Shown piece by piece: positions 32,849-43,147 of a DNA stretch of 54,279 nucleotides. The stretch's first letter is position 1. Each line of letters starts with the position of its first letter. Origin of the DNA: an uncultured Bacteroidales bacterium. Lineage in GTDB: Bacteria > Bacteroidota > Bacteroidia > Bacteroidales > Bacteroidaceae. The translations under genes and the position numbers were made by a program. The DNA lies in assembly GCA_902779315.1 (NCBI GenBank), contig CACZBC010000013.1:1-54279 (forward strand), given 5' to 3'. The notes under the pieces are model-generated. The model ran no database searches, had not been told where the DNA came from, and saw only the letters and a program-made list of their open reading frames with translations.

Positions 32849-32964
32849 CACTTTTCTTGCATAACTGGCAATAATTGCAAGCTTAAAATCGCATTTTTAC
32901 ACTTCGAAGCACTTTGGGTCTGCTATTTTATGGCGTTTTCTTTGCTCATCTCGAAGGAAAATCG

Positions 32965-32972
32965 TAACTTTG
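32965..32972 (+). promoter_or_regulatory. -7 box (TAACTTTG) of the GH43 gene
   Basis: TAACTTTG has a TTTG at 32941-32944, 20 bp upstream, as a good -33 element. The ATG is at 33009. Confidence 0.75.
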
Positions 32973-33008: not shown

Positions 33009-33980
33009 ATGTTCCGCACACTCTCACTTTTGCTGACGGTCTTGTGCTCAAGCCTGGCTTTGGCACAGAACATCACGAATCCCGTTTGGCGAGGGAACTG
33101 GCCTGATCCAACTGTTTGGCTTGGCGAAGACGGTCGCTACCACTGCCTGGCAACCAATCCCACCCGCTCTCTCGTGAGCGACGACCTGTTCAATTGGGAG
33201 ATAAGCGAGGTCGCCCCTATCGACATCGAGTCGTGGAACCAGATGCACGCCATCAGTCGCAACTACTGGGCCCCAGATGTGGCTACCGTCGCAGGCAAGC
33301 GAAACCTCTACATATCGCTCTACAATAGTGCGGAAGACAGCAATATCGGGGTCTTTCAGGAGTATGCTCCAGGTCAGTTCCGCTATGTCGGCATCATTAC
33401 GAGAGGCCGAGAGACGGGCATTCACGACACGATAGACCCCGAGGTGGTGACCGATCCGAAGACGAAGAAAGTGTGGCTCTTCTTCGGTTCCGTAGGCGGC
33501 ATCCATCGCATCGAACTCAACAAGGACGGACTTTCCCTGAAAGAGGGAGCGAAATACGAACATGTGGCTGGCCTCAAGGTGGAGGAGAACCCCAACCGCT
33601 CGAAGGTCTTCGAGGGCTCGTATCTGCACAAACACGGCAAATACTGGTACCTCTTCGTCAGCTCAGGCTTTTTCGGAGACCACACTTATCAGCTGAAAGT
33701 GGGTCGCGCAAAAAAGCTGACCGACGACTTCTTCGACAGAGAAGGCCGACCCATGAAGGAAGGCTTTGCCACAACGGTACTTCATAGCGATGAAGGTGAC
33801 CATTTCTACGGCCCCGGACATTGTGGCGAAATCTTCAAGGCGAAAGACGGAAACGAATACATCTTCTACCATTGCCATGTTGCAGGAAGCAGGAGACAAG
33901 GAAGCCGACCACTCTTCATCTCCCAGATAAAATGGGACAAAGAGGGCTGGCCATACGTGGAAGGAGGAAAGCCACAATGA
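33009..33980 (+). CDS. GH43 glycoside hydrolase, secreted
   Basis: This 323-residue protein has a signal peptide (MFRTLSLLLTVLCSSLALA). Five-bladed propeller motifs of GH43 are W-P-D-P-T-V (catalytic base Asp), H-D-T-I-D-P-E-V (Asp) and V-F-E-G-S-Y-L (general acid Glu). It would act on arabinose- or xylose-containing plant glycans. It is transcribed divergently from the GH31 operon across a 160-bp gap with a promoter for each. Confidence 0.92.
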   Translation: MFRTLSLLLTVLCSSLALAQNITNPVWRGNWPDPTVWLGEDGRYHCLATNPTRSLVSDDLFNWEISEVAPIDIESWNQMHAISRNYWAPDVATVAGKRNLYISLYNSAEDSNIGVFQEYAPGQFRYVGIITRGRETGIHDTIDPEVVTDPKTKKVWLFFGSVGGIHRIELNKDGLSLKEGAKYEHVAGLKVEENPNRSKVFEGSYLHKHGKYWYLFVSSGFFGDHTYQLKVGRAKKLTDDFFDREGRPMKEGFATTVLHSDEGDHFYGPGHCGEIFKAKDGNEYIFYHCHVAGSRRQGSRPLFISQIKWDKEGWPYVEGGKPQ

Positions 33981-33989
33981 CGCGAACGG

Positions 33990-34140
33990 AAACGACTAGT
34001 GCGACGATGGCAAACGTATAGTGTGACGTTGGCGATTTACTAGTGTGACGTTCGCAATTTACTAGTGTGACGTTCGCAATTTACTAGTGTGACGTTCGCA
34101 ATTTACTAGTGTGACGTTTGCAATTGTCACTGGAGTCGTT
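33990..34140. repeat. CTAGTGTGACG-family array with four 22-bp tandem units (gap 4)
   Basis: Four 22-bp units occupy 34036-34123 head to tail. Each reads TTTACTAGTGTGACG plus TTCGCAA; the last has TTTGCAA. Degenerate units (ACTAGTGCGACGATGGCAAA, TAGTGTGACGTTGGCGA) precede from 33990. The array begins about 10 bp after the GH43 stop. There are no spacers, so it is not a CRISPR. Confidence 0.85.
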
Positions 34141-34189
34141 TGGAAACACAACTGGAAGAAAGAAAAAACCAACTAAGATAACTGACAAT

Positions 34190-35575
34190 ATGACACTCAT
34201 TAAATCAATCTCAGGAATCAGAGGAACCATCGGAGGGAAAGCTGGAGACACGCTCAATCCCCTCGATATCGTGAAGTTCACATCTGCCTACGCAACCCTC
34301 ATTCGCCGCACAACTACGGTCAAGAGCAACAAGATAGTGGTCGGCAGAGATGCCCGCATCTCCGGACCCATGGTGAAGAACGTGGTTTGCGGAACACTTA
34401 TGGGAATGGGCTTCGACGTAGTCAACATCGGACTCGCCACGACCCCCACAACCGAAGTCGCAGTCACGATGGAAGGCGCTTGTGGCGGCATCATCATTAC
34501 TGCCAGCCATAATCCGCGAATGTGGAACGCCCTGAAACTCCTCAACGCTCAAGGCGAGTTCCTCAACAAAGAGGAAGGAAACGAAGTGCTCCGCATCGCC
34601 GAAGCCGAAGACTTCGAGTACGCAGACGTGGACCACTTGGGTTCTTATCGCGAGGACAACACCTACGACCAGAAACACATTGACCTCGTTCTCGGCCTCG
34701 ACCTTGTGGATGTGGAAGCCATCAAGAAGGCGAACTTCCGCGTAGCCTTCGACAGCGTCAACAGTGTGGGCGGAGTCATCCTGCCGAAACTGCTCGAACA
34801 ACTTGGCGTAAAGACCGTCACAGGGCTCTTTACCGAACCTACAGGCGACTTCCAGCACAATCCCGAACCCCTCGAGAAGAACCTCGCCGACATCAAAGCC
34901 TTGATGCAAAAAGGCGAGCACGACATCGCCTTTGTCGTCGACCCAGATGTGGACCGCCTCGCTCTCTTCTGTGAAGACGGAACCATGTATGGTGAAGAAT
35001 ACACGCTCGTAACGGTTGCCGACTACATCCTGCAGCATACGCCAGGCAATACGGTCAGCAATCTCAGCTCCACTCGCGCCCTTCGAGATGTCACTCGCAA
35101 GTACGGATGCGAGTATAACGCAAGTGCCGTTGGCGAAGTCAATGTGGTAACAAAGATGAAGGAAACTAACGCAGTCATCGGCGGAGAAGGCAATGGTGGC
35201 GTCATCTACCCTGCAGCCCACTACGGACGAGACGCTCTGGTAGGTATCGCACTCATCCTCACATACCTCGCCAAAAAGGGAATGAAGGCAAGCGAACTGC
35301 GTGCAACCTATCCTCCCTACTTCATCGCCAAGAACCGTATCGACCTGACTCCAGAAACAGACGTGGATGCAATCCTCGCCAAAGTTAAGGAAATGTACGC
35401 AAGCGAAGAGGTGAATGACATCGATGGCGTCAAGATAGACTTCCCCGACAAGTGGGTTCATCTCAGAAAGAGCAATACAGAACCCATCATTCGCGTCTAT
35501 AGCGAAGCCAGCACAATGCAGGACGCAGACGCAATAGGCAAGCAAATCATGGACGTAGTCTACAGTATGGCATAA
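34190..35575 (+). CDS. glmM: Phosphohexomutase, probable phosphoglucosamine mutase
   Basis: This 461-residue enzyme of the phosphoglucomutase/phosphomannomutase family most likely converts GlcN-6-P to GlcN-1-P for peptidoglycan and LPS precursors. It has phosphoserine Ser106 in I-T-A-S-H-N-P, a metal loop D-P-D-V-D-R, a sugar loop G-G-E-G-N-G-G and a phosphate loop R-K-S-N-T-E-P. The N-terminus (S-I-S-G-I-R-G-T-I-G-G) fits GlmM-type Bacteroidetes mutases. The start at 34190 avoids a 24-codon extension that overlaps the repeat array. It is followed by nagA, forming an amino-sugar pair. Confidence 0.88.
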   Translation: MTLIKSISGIRGTIGGKAGDTLNPLDIVKFTSAYATLIRRTTTVKSNKIVVGRDARISGPMVKNVVCGTLMGMGFDVVNIGLATTPTTEVAVTMEGACGGIIITASHNPRMWNALKLLNAQGEFLNKEEGNEVLRIAEAEDFEYADVDHLGSYREDNTYDQKHIDLVLGLDLVDVEAIKKANFRVAFDSVNSVGGVILPKLLEQLGVKTVTGLFTEPTGDFQHNPEPLEKNLADIKALMQKGEHDIAFVVDPDVDRLALFCEDGTMYGEEYTLVTVADYILQHTPGNTVSNLSSTRALRDVTRKYGCEYNASAVGEVNVVTKMKETNAVIGGEGNGGVIYPAAHYGRDALVGIALILTYLAKKGMKASELRATYPPYFIAKNRIDLTPETDVDAILAKVKEMYASEEVNDIDGVKIDFPDKWVHLRKSNTEPIIRVYSEASTMQDADAIGKQIMDVVYSMA

Positions 35576-35612
35576 ACTTTAACAACTAACCTATAAACTT
35601 CCAACTATTCTC

Positions 35613-36776
35613 ATGTTAACCCAAATCATTAATGCAAAAATCCTGACCCCGCAAGGATGGCTCAAGAACGGCAGCATCATCCTTCGAGACAACAAGATAC
35701 TCGAGGTGACAAACTGCGACTTGGCCGTCATCGGAGCTGACCTCATCGACGCTAAAGGCATGTATGTAGTGCCCGGATTCATCGATATGCATGTTCACGG
35801 AGGAGGCGGCAGAGACTTCCAAGAAGGCACACCTGAAGCATTCAAGACCGCTGTGGAAGCTCACGCGAAACATGGCACGACCACTATCTTCCCCACCCTG
35901 AGCAGCAGTACCGTGCCCATGATTGAGAAGGCAGTACATACTTGTACCAAACTCATGCAGGAAAAAGACTCGCCCATCCTCGGTCTTCACCTCGAAGGAC
36001 ACTACCTCAACCCCACAAAGGCTGGGGCGCAACAACCCGAATGGATAAAGAACCCAGACCCCAACGAGTACATCCCCATCGTGGAAAAGTCGGAATGTCT
36101 CTCGCGTTGGGACGCTGCTCCAGAACTTCCAGGAGCCCTGCAGTTCGGACGTTACTGCGCAGAAAAGGGAATCCTGCCAAGCATAGCACACACCAATGCA
36201 GAATATGATGACGTAAAAGCCGCTTTCGAAGCAGGCTTCACCCACGTCACGCACTTCTACAATGCCATGCCTGGCTTCCACAACAAGATGGGATACAAGT
36301 ACGAAGGTACAGTCGAAAGTGTCTACCTCATTGACGACATGACCATAGAATGCATAGCTGACGGCATCCATGTTCCGCCCACAATCCTTCGCATGGCCTA
36401 TAAGATCAAAGGTGTTGAACGCATGGCCGTCATCACGGACGCATTGGCTGTGGCTGCTGCGCCTGCCGACGCTAAGGCTTTCGACGAGCGTGTCATTGTC
36501 GAGGACGGCGTTGCAAAACTCTCCGACCGCAGTGCCCTTGCAGGTTCCATCGCTACAACCGACCGACTGGTCCGCACTCTTGTTCAACAAGCAGAAGTGC
36601 CTCTTGAGGATGCAGTCCGTATGGCAAGCGAAACGCCGGCTCACATCATGGGCATCTTCGGCAGGAAAGGCGCTTTGGCTCGCGGCAAAGATGCCGACGT
36701 CCTTATCCTCGACGAGAAACTCAAGGTTCGCTGCGTTTGGCAAATGGGCAAGATTATCGAGAACACACTCTTCTAG
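35613..36776 (+). CDS. nagA: N-acetylglucosamine-6-phosphate deacetylase
   Basis: This 387-residue enzyme hydrolyses GlcNAc-6-P to GlcN-6-P and acetate, recycling cell-wall and dietary amino sugar. Amidohydrolase-fold motifs are I-D-M-H-V-H-G-G-G-G, G-L-H-L-E-G-H-Y-L-N (metal Glu), A-H-T-N-A, H-F-Y-N-A-M-P-G-F, A-D-G-I-H-V and V-I-T-D-A (catalytic Asp). It lies 37 bp after glmM and 6 bp before the channel fusion gene, so the three may be co-transcribed. Confidence 0.97.
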   Translation: MLTQIINAKILTPQGWLKNGSIILRDNKILEVTNCDLAVIGADLIDAKGMYVVPGFIDMHVHGGGGRDFQEGTPEAFKTAVEAHAKHGTTTIFPTLSSSTVPMIEKAVHTCTKLMQEKDSPILGLHLEGHYLNPTKAGAQQPEWIKNPDPNEYIPIVEKSECLSRWDAAPELPGALQFGRYCAEKGILPSIAHTNAEYDDVKAAFEAGFTHVTHFYNAMPGFHNKMGYKYEGTVESVYLIDDMTIECIADGIHVPPTILRMAYKIKGVERMAVITDALAVAAAPADAKAFDERVIVEDGVAKLSDRSALAGSIATTDRLVRTLVQQAEVPLEDAVRMASETPAHIMGIFGRKGALARGKDADVLILDEKLKVRCVWQMGKIIENTLF

Positions 36777-36782
36777 AAGTTC

Positions 36783-39700
36783 ATGAATCTCATTCGAAGA
36801 CTTTGGCAGAAAGCCATGCATAATGAAGCGCTACGGGAAAAGTTGCGCGTCATTATATTCCAAAGCGACACTCCGCTTGGAAAGGCTTTCGATGTCGCGT
36901 TGCTTTGTTGCATTGTTGCAAGCATACTGATCGTCGTGTTGGAAAGCTTGCAAGGAATGCCACCAAAGGCAAAGTTGGTCTTTACCGTCTTGGAGTATGT
37001 CTTCACATTCTTCTTTACGCTCGAGTACCTTTGCCGGCTTTACTGCTCCGACAAGCCACGCGATTATGCCCTAAGCTTCTTCGGAATCATTGACTTGCTG
37101 AGCACTTTGCCGCTCTACATCGGATGGATATTCGGTCCTGTTCGCTACCTTATGGTAGTGCGTACATTCCGCCTCATCCGTGTTTTCCGCGTCTTCAAAC
37201 TCTTCAGTTTCCTGCAAGAGGGCGACCTTTTGATGCGCTCCATCATCATCAGCGCCCCAAAGATTGGCGTCTTCTTCCTCTTCATGGTCATCATGGTCAT
37301 CAGTATGGGAACACTCATGTACATGGTGGAAGGCAGCATTCCGAACACTCCATTCACCGACATACCGACCAGCATTTACTGGGCTGTCGTGACAATGACG
37401 ACTGTAGGCTATGGCGACATTGCTCCTGCAACATTCCTTGGGCGCGTGCTTTCCGCTATAGTCATGCTGATGGGCTACACCATTATGGCCGTTCCGACAG
37501 GTATCGTCAGCGCGCAAATGGTGCATGATCACAAGTCAAAAGGCAATGAGAAGTCTTGTCCGGAATGCGGTTCTCCCCTACCCTTCGACGCGCATTTCTG
37601 TCCTTTCTGTGGCTTGAAACAAGATGCCACAAAGAATATAAAGAGCGTTAATGCGCCATTGGTGGTGTTGCTGCTCTTGTTCCTGCCGAGTTTCACACTC
37701 CATGCTCAAGACCAGCTGCTTACAGGCACCATCATTGGAACTGCCGAGAGTGTGGACTATTCGAGTGGGCAGGCCAGCACAACCGTCAATACTGCAGCTA
37801 ATGCCTTCGATGGAAACTTCTCCACCTTCTTTGCTTCCTACGAACGCAGCAAGACATGGGTGGGGCTCGACTTAGGGGAAAAACATGTCATTACTCGTGT
37901 CGGATGGTCGCCTCGCGAAGGAAGTTATGGACCGAAACGCGTGGTCCTGGCTCTCTTCGAAGGCGCAAACGACCCGAACTTCCTTGATGGCGTCCCGCTC
38001 TATCTGGTTGATCAGGAAGGCACAGTCGGTTCGATGAGCTATGCCGACGTGAATGTCTCAAGAGGCTTCCGTTATGTTCGATACATCGGTCCCAACGATG
38101 CAAGATGCAACATAGCGGAAGTTGCTTTCTATGGCCACGCTGGCGAAGGCGACGACACACAGTTCTATCAACTGACCAACTTGCCAACCCTCTCCTTCCA
38201 TACTGTCGACAACATCGACCCATACGACAAAATACACGAACTCGTCTCGTCCTTCACAATCATATATGCTGACGGCACGATGATTCAGGAAGAGACAGGC
38301 ACAAGCCGATACCGCGGAAACGGTTCGCTGACAAACCCCAAGAAGCCCTATCGCATCAAACTCGACACCCAGAAACGCATGTTCAAGGATTCCGATATGC
38401 GTTCTCCAGCAAAAGCCAAGAAGTGGACACTCATCAACAATCACGATGATAAAACGCTGATGCGAAACCTTGTGGCCTTCGAGATAGCACGTCGAATGGG
38501 CTACGATTATGTGCCTTGGAGCAAGCCTGTCGATGTTATAGTTAACGGCGAATACAAGGGATGTTACCAACTAAGCGACCAATTGACAGTTGACAGGAAT
38601 CGCATTAACCTTACTGAGATGGAACCAACTGACATCGAAGGCGAGGCTTTGACTGGCGGTTATCTGTTGGAGCTGGATGGTTACGCTGCTCAGGAAACAT
38701 CCTGGTTCACAAGTGCGTCAGGCAATCCCGTTACCATCAAGAGTCCGGACGATGAGGAAATCATGCCCGAACAGGCTGCTTACATTCGTCGCGAATTCAA
38801 CCTGATGGAGGCAAAGATACTGGCTTCCAACTTCGACGACCCGGTTTTGGGCTTTCGTTCGAAACTCGACGAAAAGACTCTTTTGCAGTATTGGCTGACC
38901 GAAGAACTGGCTGGCAATCCTGATGCCTTCTGGAGTTGCTATTTCACAAAAGAGCGAGGAGACGAACGATTCCACATGGGACCTGTCTGGGACTTTGACA
39001 ATGCATTCGACAACGACTACCGAAACTTCCCGACGAACGACCTCGGCGACTTCATTTCGCTTGCCCGAGGCGGTGCAGGCAACTTCCGAGCCTTGCTCAA
39101 ACGTATATTCTCCGACCAGGTTCTTCGCGATTCTATGGCTGTGATGTGGAACTATGCGCGAGCCGAGCGAGGCATTACGAAAGAGAGTCTTCTCGCTTAC
39201 ATCGACTCGACGGCTCAAGAATTGATGCAATCCCAACGACTCAATTTCATGCGATGGCCCGTTTTGGACCAAAAGGTACAGGTCAATCCGAGAGCTGGCG
39301 GCTCGTATGAAGTTGAACTTGGTTGGCTGAAGGAATACCTCGAGAACCGAATTTCGTGGCTCGACAACTTCATCAACAATAATCCGAGTGGCGAGGAGCC
39401 AGAAGTCGTGGAGATTGCTTCGGCAGCCGATTTGGCAGGCTTTGCAAATCGCGTCAACAGTGGAGAGACTTCACTTTGTGCTGTTCTGAGAGCAGACATC
39501 GACTTCTCTTCCTACCCAAGTGTCATGATTGGAACCAACAATCACTACAAGGGAGAGTTCGACGGAGCTGGACATTCCATCAAACTTGCCCTGCGACGAA
39601 GTGCAGAAGATGCAGGTCTTTTTGGCTGGCTATCAGGTCATGTTCACGACCTCAGCACGACGGGTACCATCACGACCTCAGCTAAGTTTGCCGGAGGCAT

Positions 39701-41342
39701 TGCCGCAAGGACAGAGAATGCCACGATAGAGCGATGCCAGAGCAAGGTTAATATTGTCAGCACAGTTAATGGCGACGGCACTCACGGCGGCATTATGGGT
39801 ATTGCTTATCAGGGCACAATTGTTCGCGATTGCCTTATAAGTGGTGGCATGTTGGGCACTCAGACGAATTGTTGCGGAGGTGTTGCGGGTTGGACAGACG
39901 GCTCTATTCACATCTCGAACTGCCTCATTACCAGTCGCTTCACAGTTGGCACAGACGGAAGCGACTTGATAGCTCGAAACGTGAGCAATGTCACTTCAAC
40001 AAACAACTACATCCAGAGTGACTGGAACGCCCCGAATGGATGCGGAGGCATTACAATGTTGACGGAAAATCAGGTGAATTATGGAGAGGCATGTTTCCTG
40101 CTTGAAGGGAAACAGCCGGGCAGTTCTGCATGGCGACAGACGCTTGGCGCAGACACCACACCCATTCCAGACCCCTCTCACAGCACAGTCTATTCATTCT
40201 CCCATCTGCATTGTGACGGCTCGCCCTACACTACTATCGACGGCTATACCAACAATGCTTCGCTCAACAGACAAGACAATCACAACTATGTTGGCGGCAT
40301 TTGTCAGTACTGCGGAAACATCGACATAAACAACATGCCTCGCGACGAACGCGGATACTACCAGATTGCTTCGGCCGAGGCACTCAAATGGTTCGCCCAG
40401 ATGATAGAGCAGGGCCACACAGATATCTGTGGTGTGCTGACCGACGACATTGACTTCACGCACTATCCCACCACGATGATTGGCGAGAGCAAGACTTTCG
40501 AAGGCATCTTCGACGGAGGCGGCCACACCATCACTATCGCGTTGGTTCGTTCGGCAGACTATGCCGGACTCTTTTGTCATCTGTCCGGAACCGTGCAAGA
40601 TCTTATAGTTCGCGGCACAATCACTACAAGTCGCAAGTTTGCCGGCCTTGTTTCCGATGTTCGCGGCGGCACTATGCTTCGATGCCAGAGTTACATCAAT
40701 ATCAACGCCACAATAGATGGTGACGGCACTCATGGCGGTTTGGCGGGACTCGCCAGCGATGGTCCGAGCATTCCCACGATACAGGACTGCATCTTTGCTG
40801 GCAGCATAAACGGAGCGAATGTGAACTTGTGCGGAGGTCTCGTCGGCTGGGCTTCATATACTTGTCTCATCTCGAACAACCTCATGATGGGCAAGATGAA
40901 CATCAGTTCGGAAGGCGGCGACATCATTTGCCGCAATAATAGTCGGGCCATCATCCTCGACACATACTACTACACCGACTGGGACATTAGCGTACCGACT
41001 GATGCTATCAGCACCGACGAGTACGAAATGACGAGCGGCGACCTTTGCCTCATGCTCAATGCCGGCAGGTCGGAAGAGCGGCAAGCATGGTTCCAAACGC
41101 TGAACGAGGATAACTATCCCGTTCCGGACAATAGGCATCTGCCCGTCTGGTACTACGACGGATCGTACATCAACGAAGATCCTGACGGCATACAAATCGT
41201 TAAGAATCAAGAGACTAAAGCAACCGATCAAATCTACGACCTTAGTGGACGGCGTATTCTCGGCACACCAGATCGAGGCATTTACATCGTGAACGGAAGG
41301 AAGATTGCATTCGGTAATGACAAATACAAAGTGCAACGTTGA
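36783..41342 (+). CDS. Fusion: voltage-gated-type K+ channel + zinc ribbon + secreted CotH/beta-helix protein
   Basis: One uninterrupted 1519-residue frame joins two normally separate proteins. Residues about 1-255 are a six-TM ion channel: an S4-like helix (R-x-x-R-L-I-R-V-F-R-V-F-K) and filter T-V-G-Y-G-D at about 206-211. Cys259, 262, 273 and 276 form a zinc ribbon, where such channels usually end. Residues 284-308 read K-N-I-K-S-V then a hydrophobic run to L-H-A-Q, exactly like a signal peptide lacking its Met. Then come a discoidin-like domain (about 310-460) and a CotH domain (R-Y-R-G-N-G-S at 509, W-D-F-D at 736). Two beta-helix/GLUG-like domains follow (about 870-1010, 1195-1380). The tail (D-L-S-G-R-R-I, G-I-Y-I-V-N-G-R-K-I) matches Prevotella secreted proteins. 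The topology is coherent: the extra helix would send CotH to the periplasm. Confidence 0.85.
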   Translation: MNLIRRLWQKAMHNEALREKLRVIIFQSDTPLGKAFDVALLCCIVASILIVVLESLQGMPPKAKLVFTVLEYVFTFFFTLEYLCRLYCSDKPRDYALSFFGIIDLLSTLPLYIGWIFGPVRYLMVVRTFRLIRVFRVFKLFSFLQEGDLLMRSIIISAPKIGVFFLFMVIMVISMGTLMYMVEGSIPNTPFTDIPTSIYWAVVTMTTVGYGDIAPATFLGRVLSAIVMLMGYTIMAVPTGIVSAQMVHDHKSKGNEKSCPECGSPLPFDAHFCPFCGLKQDATKNIKSVNAPLVVLLLLFLPSFTLHAQDQLLTGTIIGTAESVDYSSGQASTTVNTAANAFDGNFSTFFASYERSKTWVGLDLGEKHVITRVGWSPREGSYGPKRVVLALFEGANDPNFLDGVPLYLVDQEGTVGSMSYADVNVSRGFRYVRYIGPNDARCNIAEVAFYGHAGEGDDTQFYQLTNLPTLSFHTVDNIDPYDKIHELVSSFTIIYADGTMIQEETGTSRYRGNGSLTNPKKPYRIKLDTQKRMFKDSDMRSPAKAKKWTLINNHDDKTLMRNLVAFEIARRMGYDYVPWSKPVDVIVNGEYKGCYQLSDQLTVDRNRINLTEMEPTDIEGEALTGGYLLELDGYAAQETSWFTSASGNPVTIKSPDDEEIMPEQAAYIRREFNLMEAKILASNFDDPVLGFRSKLDEKTLLQYWLTEELAGNPDAFWSCYFTKERGDERFHMGPVWDFDNAFDNDYRNFPTNDLGDFISLARGGAGNFRALLKRIFSDQVLRDSMAVMWNYARAERGITKESLLAYIDSTAQELMQSQRLNFMRWPVLDQKVQVNPRAGGSYEVELGWLKEYLENRISWLDNFINNNPSGEEPEVVEIASAADLAGFANRVNSGETSLCAVLRADIDFSSYPSVMIGTNNHYKGEFDGAGHSIKLALRRSAEDAGLFGWLSGHVHDLSTTGTITTSAKFAGGIAARTENATIERCQSKVNIVSTVNGDGTHGGIMGIAYQGTIVRDCLISGGMLGTQTNCCGGVAGWTDGSIHISNCLITSRFTVGTDGSDLIARNVSNVTSTNNYIQSDWNAPNGCGGITMLTENQVNYGEACFLLEGKQPGSSAWRQTLGADTTPIPDPSHSTVYSFSHLHCDGSPYTTIDGYTNNASLNRQDNHNYVGGICQYCGNIDINNMPRDERGYYQIASAEALKWFAQMIEQGHTDICGVLTDDIDFTHYPTTMIGESKTFEGIFDGGGHTITIALVRSADYAGLFCHLSGTVQDLIVRGTITTSRKFAGLVSDVRGGTMLRCQSYININATIDGDGTHGGLAGLASDGPSIPTIQDCIFAGSINGANVNLCGGLVGWASYTCLISNNLMMGKMNISSEGGDIICRNNSRAIILDTYYYTDWDISVPTDAISTDEYEMTSGDLCLMLNAGRSEERQAWFQTLNEDNYPVPDNRHLPVWYYDGSYINEDPDGIQIVKNQETKATDQIYDLSGRRILGTPDRGIYIVNGRKIAFGNDKYKVQR

Positions 41343-41441
41343 AAAACGTAACGTGCCTAAAACGCAAACATATAGTGTTACGATTGCAAACATAACGTGT
41401 TATGATCGCAAACGTAACGTGCCTAATTGACAAACGTAACA
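41343..41441. repeat. CTAGTGTGACG-family repeat cluster (gap 5)
   Basis: Directly after the fusion-gene stop, five to six variant units alternate: AACGTAACGTGCCTAAAACG, CATATAGTGTTACGATTGCA, AACATAACGTGTTATGATCG, then AACGTAACGTGCC. Spacing is about 20-24 bp. It is more degenerate than the 34036 array. Confidence 0.65.
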
Positions 41442-41449
41442 CAAGTGAT

Positions 41450-43147
41450 ATGTCTGACAGTATCATTGAAAGAGTTGAAGCGCTTCGCGAATACTTGCGG
41501 AAGAACGGGCTGAATGCCTTCATCTTCCCAAGTACAGACCCGCATCAAGGCGAATATGTGCCCGAACATTGGATGACGCGGCAATGGATTTCAGGTTTCG
41601 ACGGAAGTGCAGGAACTGCCGTCGTGACCCTTTCCGACGCGGCACTTTGGACGGACAGCCGTTATTTCATCGCAGCCGAGGAGCAGCTCAAAGGCACACC
41701 TTTCCAATTAATGAAGGACGGATTGGCTGAGACGCCTTCCATCGCAGAGTGGATTTGTAATCAACTCACTGAAGGAGAGACGGTTGGAATAGACGGTAAC
41801 GTCTTCACTACGGCTGAGATGGAGGAGATGGAAAGTGCATTTGCAAAGGCTGTCATCAAGCTCAGAACAGACCTCGACCCTGCCGAAACGCTTTGGACAA
41901 ACCGTCCTCCCATCCCCAAGAACAAGGTGGAAATTCAACCCCTGGAGTTTGCCGGAGAGTCGGCTGAAAGCAAGATTGAGCGCGTTCGACAGGCTTTGAG
42001 GGAACAAAAGGCTGAGGGTCTCGTCATCTCTCAACTGGATGAAATTGCCTGGCTCCTCAATCTTCGCGGTTCCGACGTACATTGCAATCCCGTTTTCGTC
42101 AGTTATGTTCTCCTCACACAAAACGATGTGACGCTCTTCATAGACAGTGAAAAACTCGATGAAACCGTTCAAAATTACCTCAAGAGCATAGGCGTGAAGG
42201 TTCTTCCCTATGGCAAACCGAGTTTTGAAAGCAAGGCTTCGAACCCAATTCCCGCTATGAAATCGATTAAGAACCATGCTGAAATTGAAGGTTTCCGCAG
42301 GGCAATGATACGAGATGGCGTGGCGATGGTAAAGTTTCTGCGCTGGTTGAAGCCTGCAGTAGAAGCAGGGAAGGAGACGGAAATCAGCATAGACAAGAAG
42401 TTGACGGCTTTGAGGGCGGAGCAAGACCTGTATCGAGGCCTCTCGTTCGACACGATTGCGGCTTACGCTCAGCATGGCGCGATTGTCCACTACGAAGCCA
42501 CTCCAGAGACGGATGTCGTGCTTGAACCTAAAGGTTTGCTGCTTCTGGATAGTGGCGCTCAATATCAAGACGGCACGACTGACATCACGCGAACCATCGC
42601 TCTGGGTGCTTTGACGGATGAGGAACGACTCGACTACACCTTGGTTCTCAAGGGGCATATCCGCTTGGCACTCACCAAGTTCCCCGATGGAATTAGCGGC
42701 ACTCAGATAGATGCCCTTGCCCGTTATGCAATGTGGCAGCACGGCATCAACTTCGGACACGGAACCGGTCACGGAGTTGGCTCGTATCTGTGTGTTCACG
42801 AAGGACCTCATCAGATTCGACACACATGGAAACCTGCCCCACTTCATGCAGGGATGACAGTCACCAACGAACCTGGCATTTACCGACAAGGCAAGCATGG
42901 AGTGCGAATTGAGAACACCATGCTCATCGTCGAGGCTGGCGAAACTGAGTTCGGCAAGTTCCTGCGTCTCGAACCGCTCACGCTTTGCCCAATCGACCTC
43001 ACACCCGTCGTTTGGGAACTGATGACGCCAGAAGAGATAACTTACCTCAATACATATCACAAGAAAGTATACGACGAGCTCTCGCCTCTGCTTGATGAAG
43101 AGGAGAAAGAGTGGCTCAAAAGCAACACAAAAGAATGGCAATCATAA
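41450..43147 (+). CDS. Xaa-Pro aminopeptidase (M24B)
   Basis: This 565-residue cytosolic dimetal peptidase removes N-terminal residues before proline. Two creatinase-like N-terminal domains precede the pita-bread domain. Metal ligands are in L-L-D-S-G-A-Q-Y (Asp), T-T-D-I-T-R-T (Asp), G-T-G-H-G-V-G (His), T-N-E-P-G-I-Y (Glu) and V-R-I-E-N-T (Glu). The start at 41450 (M-S-D-S-I-I-E-R) excludes an upstream extension made of repeat-cluster sequence. Confidence 0.95.
   Translation: MSDSIIERVEALREYLRKNGLNAFIFPSTDPHQGEYVPEHWMTRQWISGFDGSAGTAVVTLSDAALWTDSRYFIAAEEQLKGTPFQLMKDGLAETPSIAEWICNQLTEGETVGIDGNVFTTAEMEEMESAFAKAVIKLRTDLDPAETLWTNRPPIPKNKVEIQPLEFAGESAESKIERVRQALREQKAEGLVISQLDEIAWLLNLRGSDVHCNPVFVSYVLLTQNDVTLFIDSEKLDETVQNYLKSIGVKVLPYGKPSFESKASNPIPAMKSIKNHAEIEGFRRAMIRDGVAMVKFLRWLKPAVEAGKETEISIDKKLTALRAEQDLYRGLSFDTIAAYAQHGAIVHYEATPETDVVLEPKGLLLLDSGAQYQDGTTDITRTIALGALTDEERLDYTLVLKGHIRLALTKFPDGISGTQIDALARYAMWQHGINFGHGTGHGVGSYLCVHEGPHQIRHTWKPAPLHAGMTVTNEPGIYRQGKHGVRIENTMLIVEAGETEFGKFLRLEPLTLCPIDLTPVVWELMTPEEITYLNTYHKKVYDELSPLLDEEEKEWLKSNTKEWQS

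Follow-up and report, generated by a model that had tools for sequence, protein, structure and literature searches.

The window, a stretch of 54,279 nucleotides that was analysed whole, contains an open reading frame in which a K+ channel continues in frame into a secreted CotH protein. This raises the question of whether such a joint is a real gene fusion and, if so, what becomes of its product. The first-pass annotation, made from the sequence alone, had left the choice between a real fusion, a mutation that merged two genes and an artefact. The window is an entire contig of a metagenome assembly (107 contigs, 84% complete), and all records compared with it are also metagenome assemblies.

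Architecture of the Fused Frame

The initial reading of a channel frame running unbroken into the CotH protein was confirmed at 36783-41342, as were TVGYGD, the zinc ribbon and the codon before KNIK, which is ACA and not ATG. The frame encodes, in order, the channel, the zinc ribbon, an internal signal-like segment and a CBM62/CotH protein with a T9SS-type tail:

36783..41342, + strand: fusion ORF, 1519 aa, a single open frame, shared by 22 further genomes of the genus
36882..37529, + strand: six-TM voltage-gated-type K+ channel domain, residues 34-249 (Pfam Ion_trans, E 3.5e-33 with the whole fusion)
37161..37199, + strand: S4-type segment RTFRLIRVFRVFK, residues 127-139, identical in 23/23 fused copies
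37401..37418, + strand: selectivity filter TVGYGD, residues 207-212, present in 23/23 fused copies
37557..37613, + strand: C-terminal zinc ribbon CPECG...CPFCG, residues 259-277, four Cys kept in 23/23
37614..37655, + strand: variable linker, residues 278-291, with no ATG; its sole start-like codon is the in-frame TTG at 37614
37656..37706, + strand: signal-peptide-like hydrophobic core and c-region APLVVLLLLFLPSFTLHA, with the presumed signal peptidase I cut after Ala308 (37706)
37719..38156, + strand: CBM62-like carbohydrate-binding domain, residues 313-458 (PDB 2yb7, E 1.3e-23; 5g56, 3.4e-22)
38307..39362, + strand: CotH kinase-family domain, residues 509-860 (Pfam PF08757, E 1.6e-35, 123.6 bits, cut-off 23.8)
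41178..41339, + strand: T9SS short-CTD-like tail DPDGI...YDLSGRR...GIYIVNGRK; such a tail in 19/21 complete fused frames

The Ion_trans domain, TVGYGD and an S4 with repeated Arg indicate that the channel half is probably a K+ channel of the voltage-gated type; the role of S4 is one that we assign to residues 127-139. Its matches in the PDB included Kv4.2 (7e87, 5e-26) and KvAP (1orq, 6.7e-20). The zinc ribbon scored above the Pfam cut-off for UPF0547 with the channel alone (30.2 vs 29), and both UPF0547 and Zn_ribbon_3 fell below their cut-offs when the whole fusion was scored. After the ribbon, the junction reads LKQDATKNIKSVNAPLVVLLLLFLPSFTLHA/QD, and a whole protein of secreted type follows. 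A model of the first 479 residues of the fusion by AlphaFold2 (9-sequence alignment) had a mean pLDDT of 34.6, too low to be of use.

The match to PF08757 above the curated cut-off places the secreted half, by sequence, in the CotH kinase family. A CotH profile built from 5 sequences found zero PDB chains at E 0.1, and phmmer with the secreted half returned CBM chains from the PDB only and no solved CotH kinase structure. Residues 313-458, first described as a discoidin domain, are better assigned to CBM62 from their match to CBM62 structures; the Pfam model F5_F8_type_C scored under its cut-off. The CBM62 structure 2yb7 is titled 'carbohydrate binding family 6' in the PDB. The stretch originally called a beta-helix (residues ∼871-1440) gave no Pfam match at E 0.01.

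Conservation of the Fusion

A search of 139 genomes of the genus found the joint in a single open frame in 23, this one included. The relatives had been proposed as the place to look for one gene or two adjacent ones, and in 22 other genomes it is one. With the channel alone as query, 86/139 genomes were positive, and their frames comprise 23 of 1077-1931 codons, which are the fused ones, and 63 of 274-644 codons; the 644-codon unfused frame owes its length to an open stretch upstream, according to the matching named record. Two of the fused copies (G036 and G393) are incomplete at contig ends, leaving 21 complete fused frames. Two others, L124 (G065) and L125 (G013), have fused frames of just 1203 and 1195 codons with the usual tail intact and therefore lack part of the interior of the CotH half.

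Family-wide, the channel was present in 105/301 genomes, and no open frame exceeded 457 codons in the channel genomes from other genera of the family (n = 91). Three loci in another genus of the family (L050, L051 and L052, from G228, G256 and G170) carry the same kind of channel fused to a NUDIX domain in place of the zinc ribbon, identified by Pfam in the first two (2.1e-12 and 4.3e-13) and by eye in L052, a layout reminiscent of TRPM2. In L064 (G047), the channel matches only to residue 253 and has no zinc ribbon; its tail looks unrelated, perhaps from a frame change.

When a named collection was scanned with two channel peptides, 22/52 loci were fused; the pattern used detected no frame in L191 or L192. 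The fused records come from the RGIG, RUG, RUI, metaWRAP and UBA projects; all 22 are titled uncultured Bacteroidales, Bacteroidaceae or Prevotellaceae, and the animals given in some titles are yak, water buffalo, goat, sheep and roe deer. Among viral contigs, 113 stretches matched a pattern, none of them a relative.

The 23 linkers contain 0 stops in 829 codons vs ∼38 expected from base composition, a contrast that is not a probability since the rows are related. They have seven different lengths, every one in frame. Because the same open frame is kept in 22 other genomes and the linkers are free of stops, the fusion is real and more than chance: it is a natural, conserved and selected gene fusion, not an artefact.

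Selection on the Two Halves and the Joint

Both the channel and the CotH halves are under purifying selection. In 11 chosen pairs, NG86 dN/dS was 0.01-0.09 for the channel, 0-0.10 for CBM62 and 0.03-0.18 for CotH. The signal core gave 0-0.55 (one pair saturated); for the linker, 6/11 pairs were saturated, including one with 0 nonsynonymous change, and the others lay at 0.21-0.77. Mean pairwise identity was 0.877 for the channel, 0.870 for the zinc ribbon, 0.828 for CBM62 and 0.777 for CotH, and at the joint 0.417 for the linker and 0.455 for the signal core. Both ends are thus kept, and the joint drifts yet never leaves frame.

Neighboring Genes

All 23 fused genes stand in the same glmM-nagA locus, with flanking genes of the following types:

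34118..35575, + strand: glmM-type gene, upstream of the fusion; beside 23/23 fused loci
35613..36776, + strand: nagA-type gene, ending 6 bases before the fusion ATG
41402..43147, + strand: pepP-type aminopeptidase gene, directly downstream; behind 19/23 fused loci

Of the 4 fused loci without pepP, two break off within the fusion at the end of the contig; in G052 and G398 the fetched stretch contains no such gene. One Bacteroidetes promoter pattern had six matches in the window vs 1.41 expected. The nearest upstream, at 32941-32972, lies just before an ORF at 33009 and is the only one near the gene row; none occurs anywhere in 33009-41342.

Channel-Only Relatives and the Origin of the CotH Half

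Five close relatives (G005, G403, G072, G035 and G396) have the order glmM-nagA-channel-stop-pepP with no CotH between channel and pepP; G035 has another CotH gene farther along, 48% identical. The first-pass annotation had named separate genes in all relatives, together with an internal start in this strain, as grounds against the fusion. This was not borne out: no CotH gene stood directly behind the unfused channel in any of the 18 genomes read on the 3′ side. There are 63 unfused channel genomes, and the other loci fetched stop at or near the channel. In L078 (G086) and L073 (G066), another gene of secreted type follows the unfused channel directly: one of the two matches Abhydrolase_2 and carries a T9SS-like tail, and one encodes an alpha-L-rhamnosidase.

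The 23 fused and five channel-only members form one clade (channel tree 100/99, glmM+nagA tree 100/98), and the five nest inside the fused ones; the trees leave out G016, which has a very long branch, and rows with <250 channel residues (G080). The best channel tree and the best glmM+nagA tree each require 5 changes, such as a single gain followed by four losses, and the starred branches alone force only three and two, respectively. A clade of the 23 fused alone was disfavored (AU p 0.0005 for the channel, 0.044 for the neighbors). In view of these changes and of the AU results, the CotH half has either been lost several times or been gained or exchanged more than once. Since five members of the clade live without it, the coupling of channel and CotH is dispensable.

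The nearest free-standing CotH proteins, from a sister clade, are 65-68% identical to the CotH half in the core. Their gene stands behind one for a bPH2-like membrane protein in six sister-clade genomes; in 23 loci of the fused clade with the bPH2-like gene (22 fused and G035), no CotH was found in the ∼1.5 kb fetched, some of which ended at contig ends. In a tree of CotH cores with 38 rows, which has fewer outgroups than a 52-row version, the free-standing CotH of seven sister genomes grouped with the CotH halves of G398, G085, G390 and G393 (96/91), and holding the 23 fused together was not rejected (AU p 0.063). Free genes thus group with some fused halves and a joint grouping is not rejected, so transfer out of the fused gene, repeated exchange of CotH and an ancestral free gene all remain as origins of the CotH half.

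A Proposed Precursor of Two Products

At position −1 of the presumed cleavage site, 22 of the 23 fused copies have Ala and one has Gly, and the site has the form Ala/Gly before Gln, Glu or Lys in all 23. Free-standing homologues have an N-terminal signal peptide at the equivalent place before CBM62. By simple patterns, a short-CTD tail of T9SS type was recognized in 19/21 complete fused frames, with P-x-G-[IL] in 18 of all 23 fused copies, a set that includes the two truncated at contig ends. In the remaining 2 complete frames (L128 from G390 and L127 from G398), dockerin-like repeats replace this tail, seen by eye in G390 and as a Dockerin_1 match (E 4.5e-12) in G398. Both kinds of ending are endings for outside the cell. 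No curated model of a sorting domain matched: the CotH part gave nothing in NCBIfam at E 1 or in Pfam at E 0.01. A search of this genome with the tail as query gave 64 hits at E 0.1, many of them weak and one of them the fusion. The T9SS machine was judged present from PorU (999.9 bits, cut-off 420) and SprA (2647.7 bits, cut-off 200).

The residue at −1, the signal peptide of the free homologues, the T9SS and dockerin tails and the presence of PorU and SprA favor release and export. We therefore prefer, at a probability of roughly 0.6, a reading from sequence in which the fusion would be a two-product precursor, with signal peptidase I freeing CotH for export by the T9SS and the channel staying in the inner membrane. 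The channel would take its place in the inner membrane, the zinc ribbon facing the cytosol, and the hydrophobic segment after the ribbon would act as an internal signal peptide that takes the remainder through Sec. Signal peptidase I would cleave after Ala308; a short tail would then remain on the membrane-bound channel, and the C-terminal tail of the released CBM62/CotH protein would direct it to the type IX machine and on to the cell surface. The fusion would couple the amounts of both products, and CotH would enter by the route of a membrane protein. The topology suggested at the outset, with a cytosolic ribbon, a signal-like helix and CotH outside and cleaved off, fits the conserved −1 residue and the tails; the cleavage is what we infer. 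In these uncultured, mostly rumen bacteria of the fused clade, the gene probably yields one polypeptide that is later split into two.

Translation of the CotH half mainly from an internal start, with the read-through fusion as a by-product, appears rather unlikely. TTG 37614, for instance, would give MKQDATKNIKSVNAPLVVLLLLFLPSFTLHA with a normal signal peptide. A look for a start near the linker had been proposed at the outset, and an in-frame TTG (13) or ATG (2) is indeed the first linker codon in 15/23 fused copies, with the n-region so produced basic in most. However, the identical TTG occurs in 4/5 channel-only members of the clade, where it starts nothing; being shared with them, it is a codon of the channel and not there as a start. 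The other fused copies have CTG (4), CTA (3) or ACG (1) at this position. Nor do G012 and G024 have any ATG, GTG or TTG between the zinc ribbon and the cut site, although these two are close kin and count as one lineage, in which unusual starts are possible; G393 has no start-like codon before the core. The channel, moreover, has no stop to end it, and the stretch described above that has no match to the promoter pattern extends through the fusion.

Less probable still is an uncut fusion, in which the seventh helix would tether CotH/CBM62 in the periplasm to act on the channel or sense for it. The single frame under selection would be in keeping with this, as would cores of up to ∼20 residues, which could span the membrane, but Ala or Gly at −1 in every copy and outward-directed tails in 21/21 complete frames suggest release and export. 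The T9SS presumably could not use a cargo that remained tethered to the inner membrane.

Frameshifting or other recoding that yields a channel-only product besides the fusion is very unlikely: the +1 frame has a stop in 23/23 linkers, but the one at the first linker codons comes from Leu-Lys codons shared with 4/5 channel-only members. Of the three options raised initially, an assembly or sequencing artefact and a mutation private to one strain were rejected as practically negligible, even for a contig of an incomplete metagenome assembly, given 23/139 genomes and 22/52 named loci from several assembly projects, and the real fusion stands.

If the two-product precursor is correct, signal peptidase would be a polyprotein processing enzyme in Bacteroidota, T9SS-type cargo could join the export route from within a larger membrane protein, and a K+ channel would be tied stoichiometrically to a secreted surface protein. 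The precursor may, tentatively, couple the channel and the surface CotH/CBM62 in function as well, for example by linking membrane potential to the sensing of carbohydrates at the surface or to attachment. Our guess is that the pairing serves to supply a channel and a surface carbohydrate-binding protein together. Annotation pipelines are warned that a genuine fusion of this kind resembles a missed stop.

Comparison with Known Systems

Literature searches, including full text, turned up no report of a K+ channel fused to CotH and none on CotH with T9SS and Prevotella. FbcH of Bradyrhizobium is a precursor of cytochrome b and cytochrome c1 whose internal signal is said to be cut by signal peptidase. 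As in FbcH, one bacterial gene here encodes an integral membrane protein and then an exported protein in frame, with an internal signal-like segment between them; both products of FbcH belong to one complex, whereas a K+ channel and a CBM62/CotH cargo of T9SS type have no known partnership. The channel half resembles KvAP (1orq) and Kv4.2 (7e87) in its six TM segments, basic S4-type segment and TVGYGD, but it is followed by a C-terminal zinc ribbon and a secreted protein, unlike either. The secreted half shares CBM62, CotH and similar C-terminal tails with the free-standing CotH proteins of the genus, which, in contrast, have an initial Met and an N-terminal signal peptide of their own. For the short CTD of the Prevotella intermedia T9SS, PMC11969387 gives a preferred cut at PT/GI, a Motif B with Tyr, Gly and a basic residue, and a Motif D of GxY. 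The tail of the fusion has PD-GI, YDLSGRR and GIYI in similar fashion, but, unlike the cargo described there, the presumed cargo here sits behind an inner-membrane channel rather than behind an N-terminal signal peptide.
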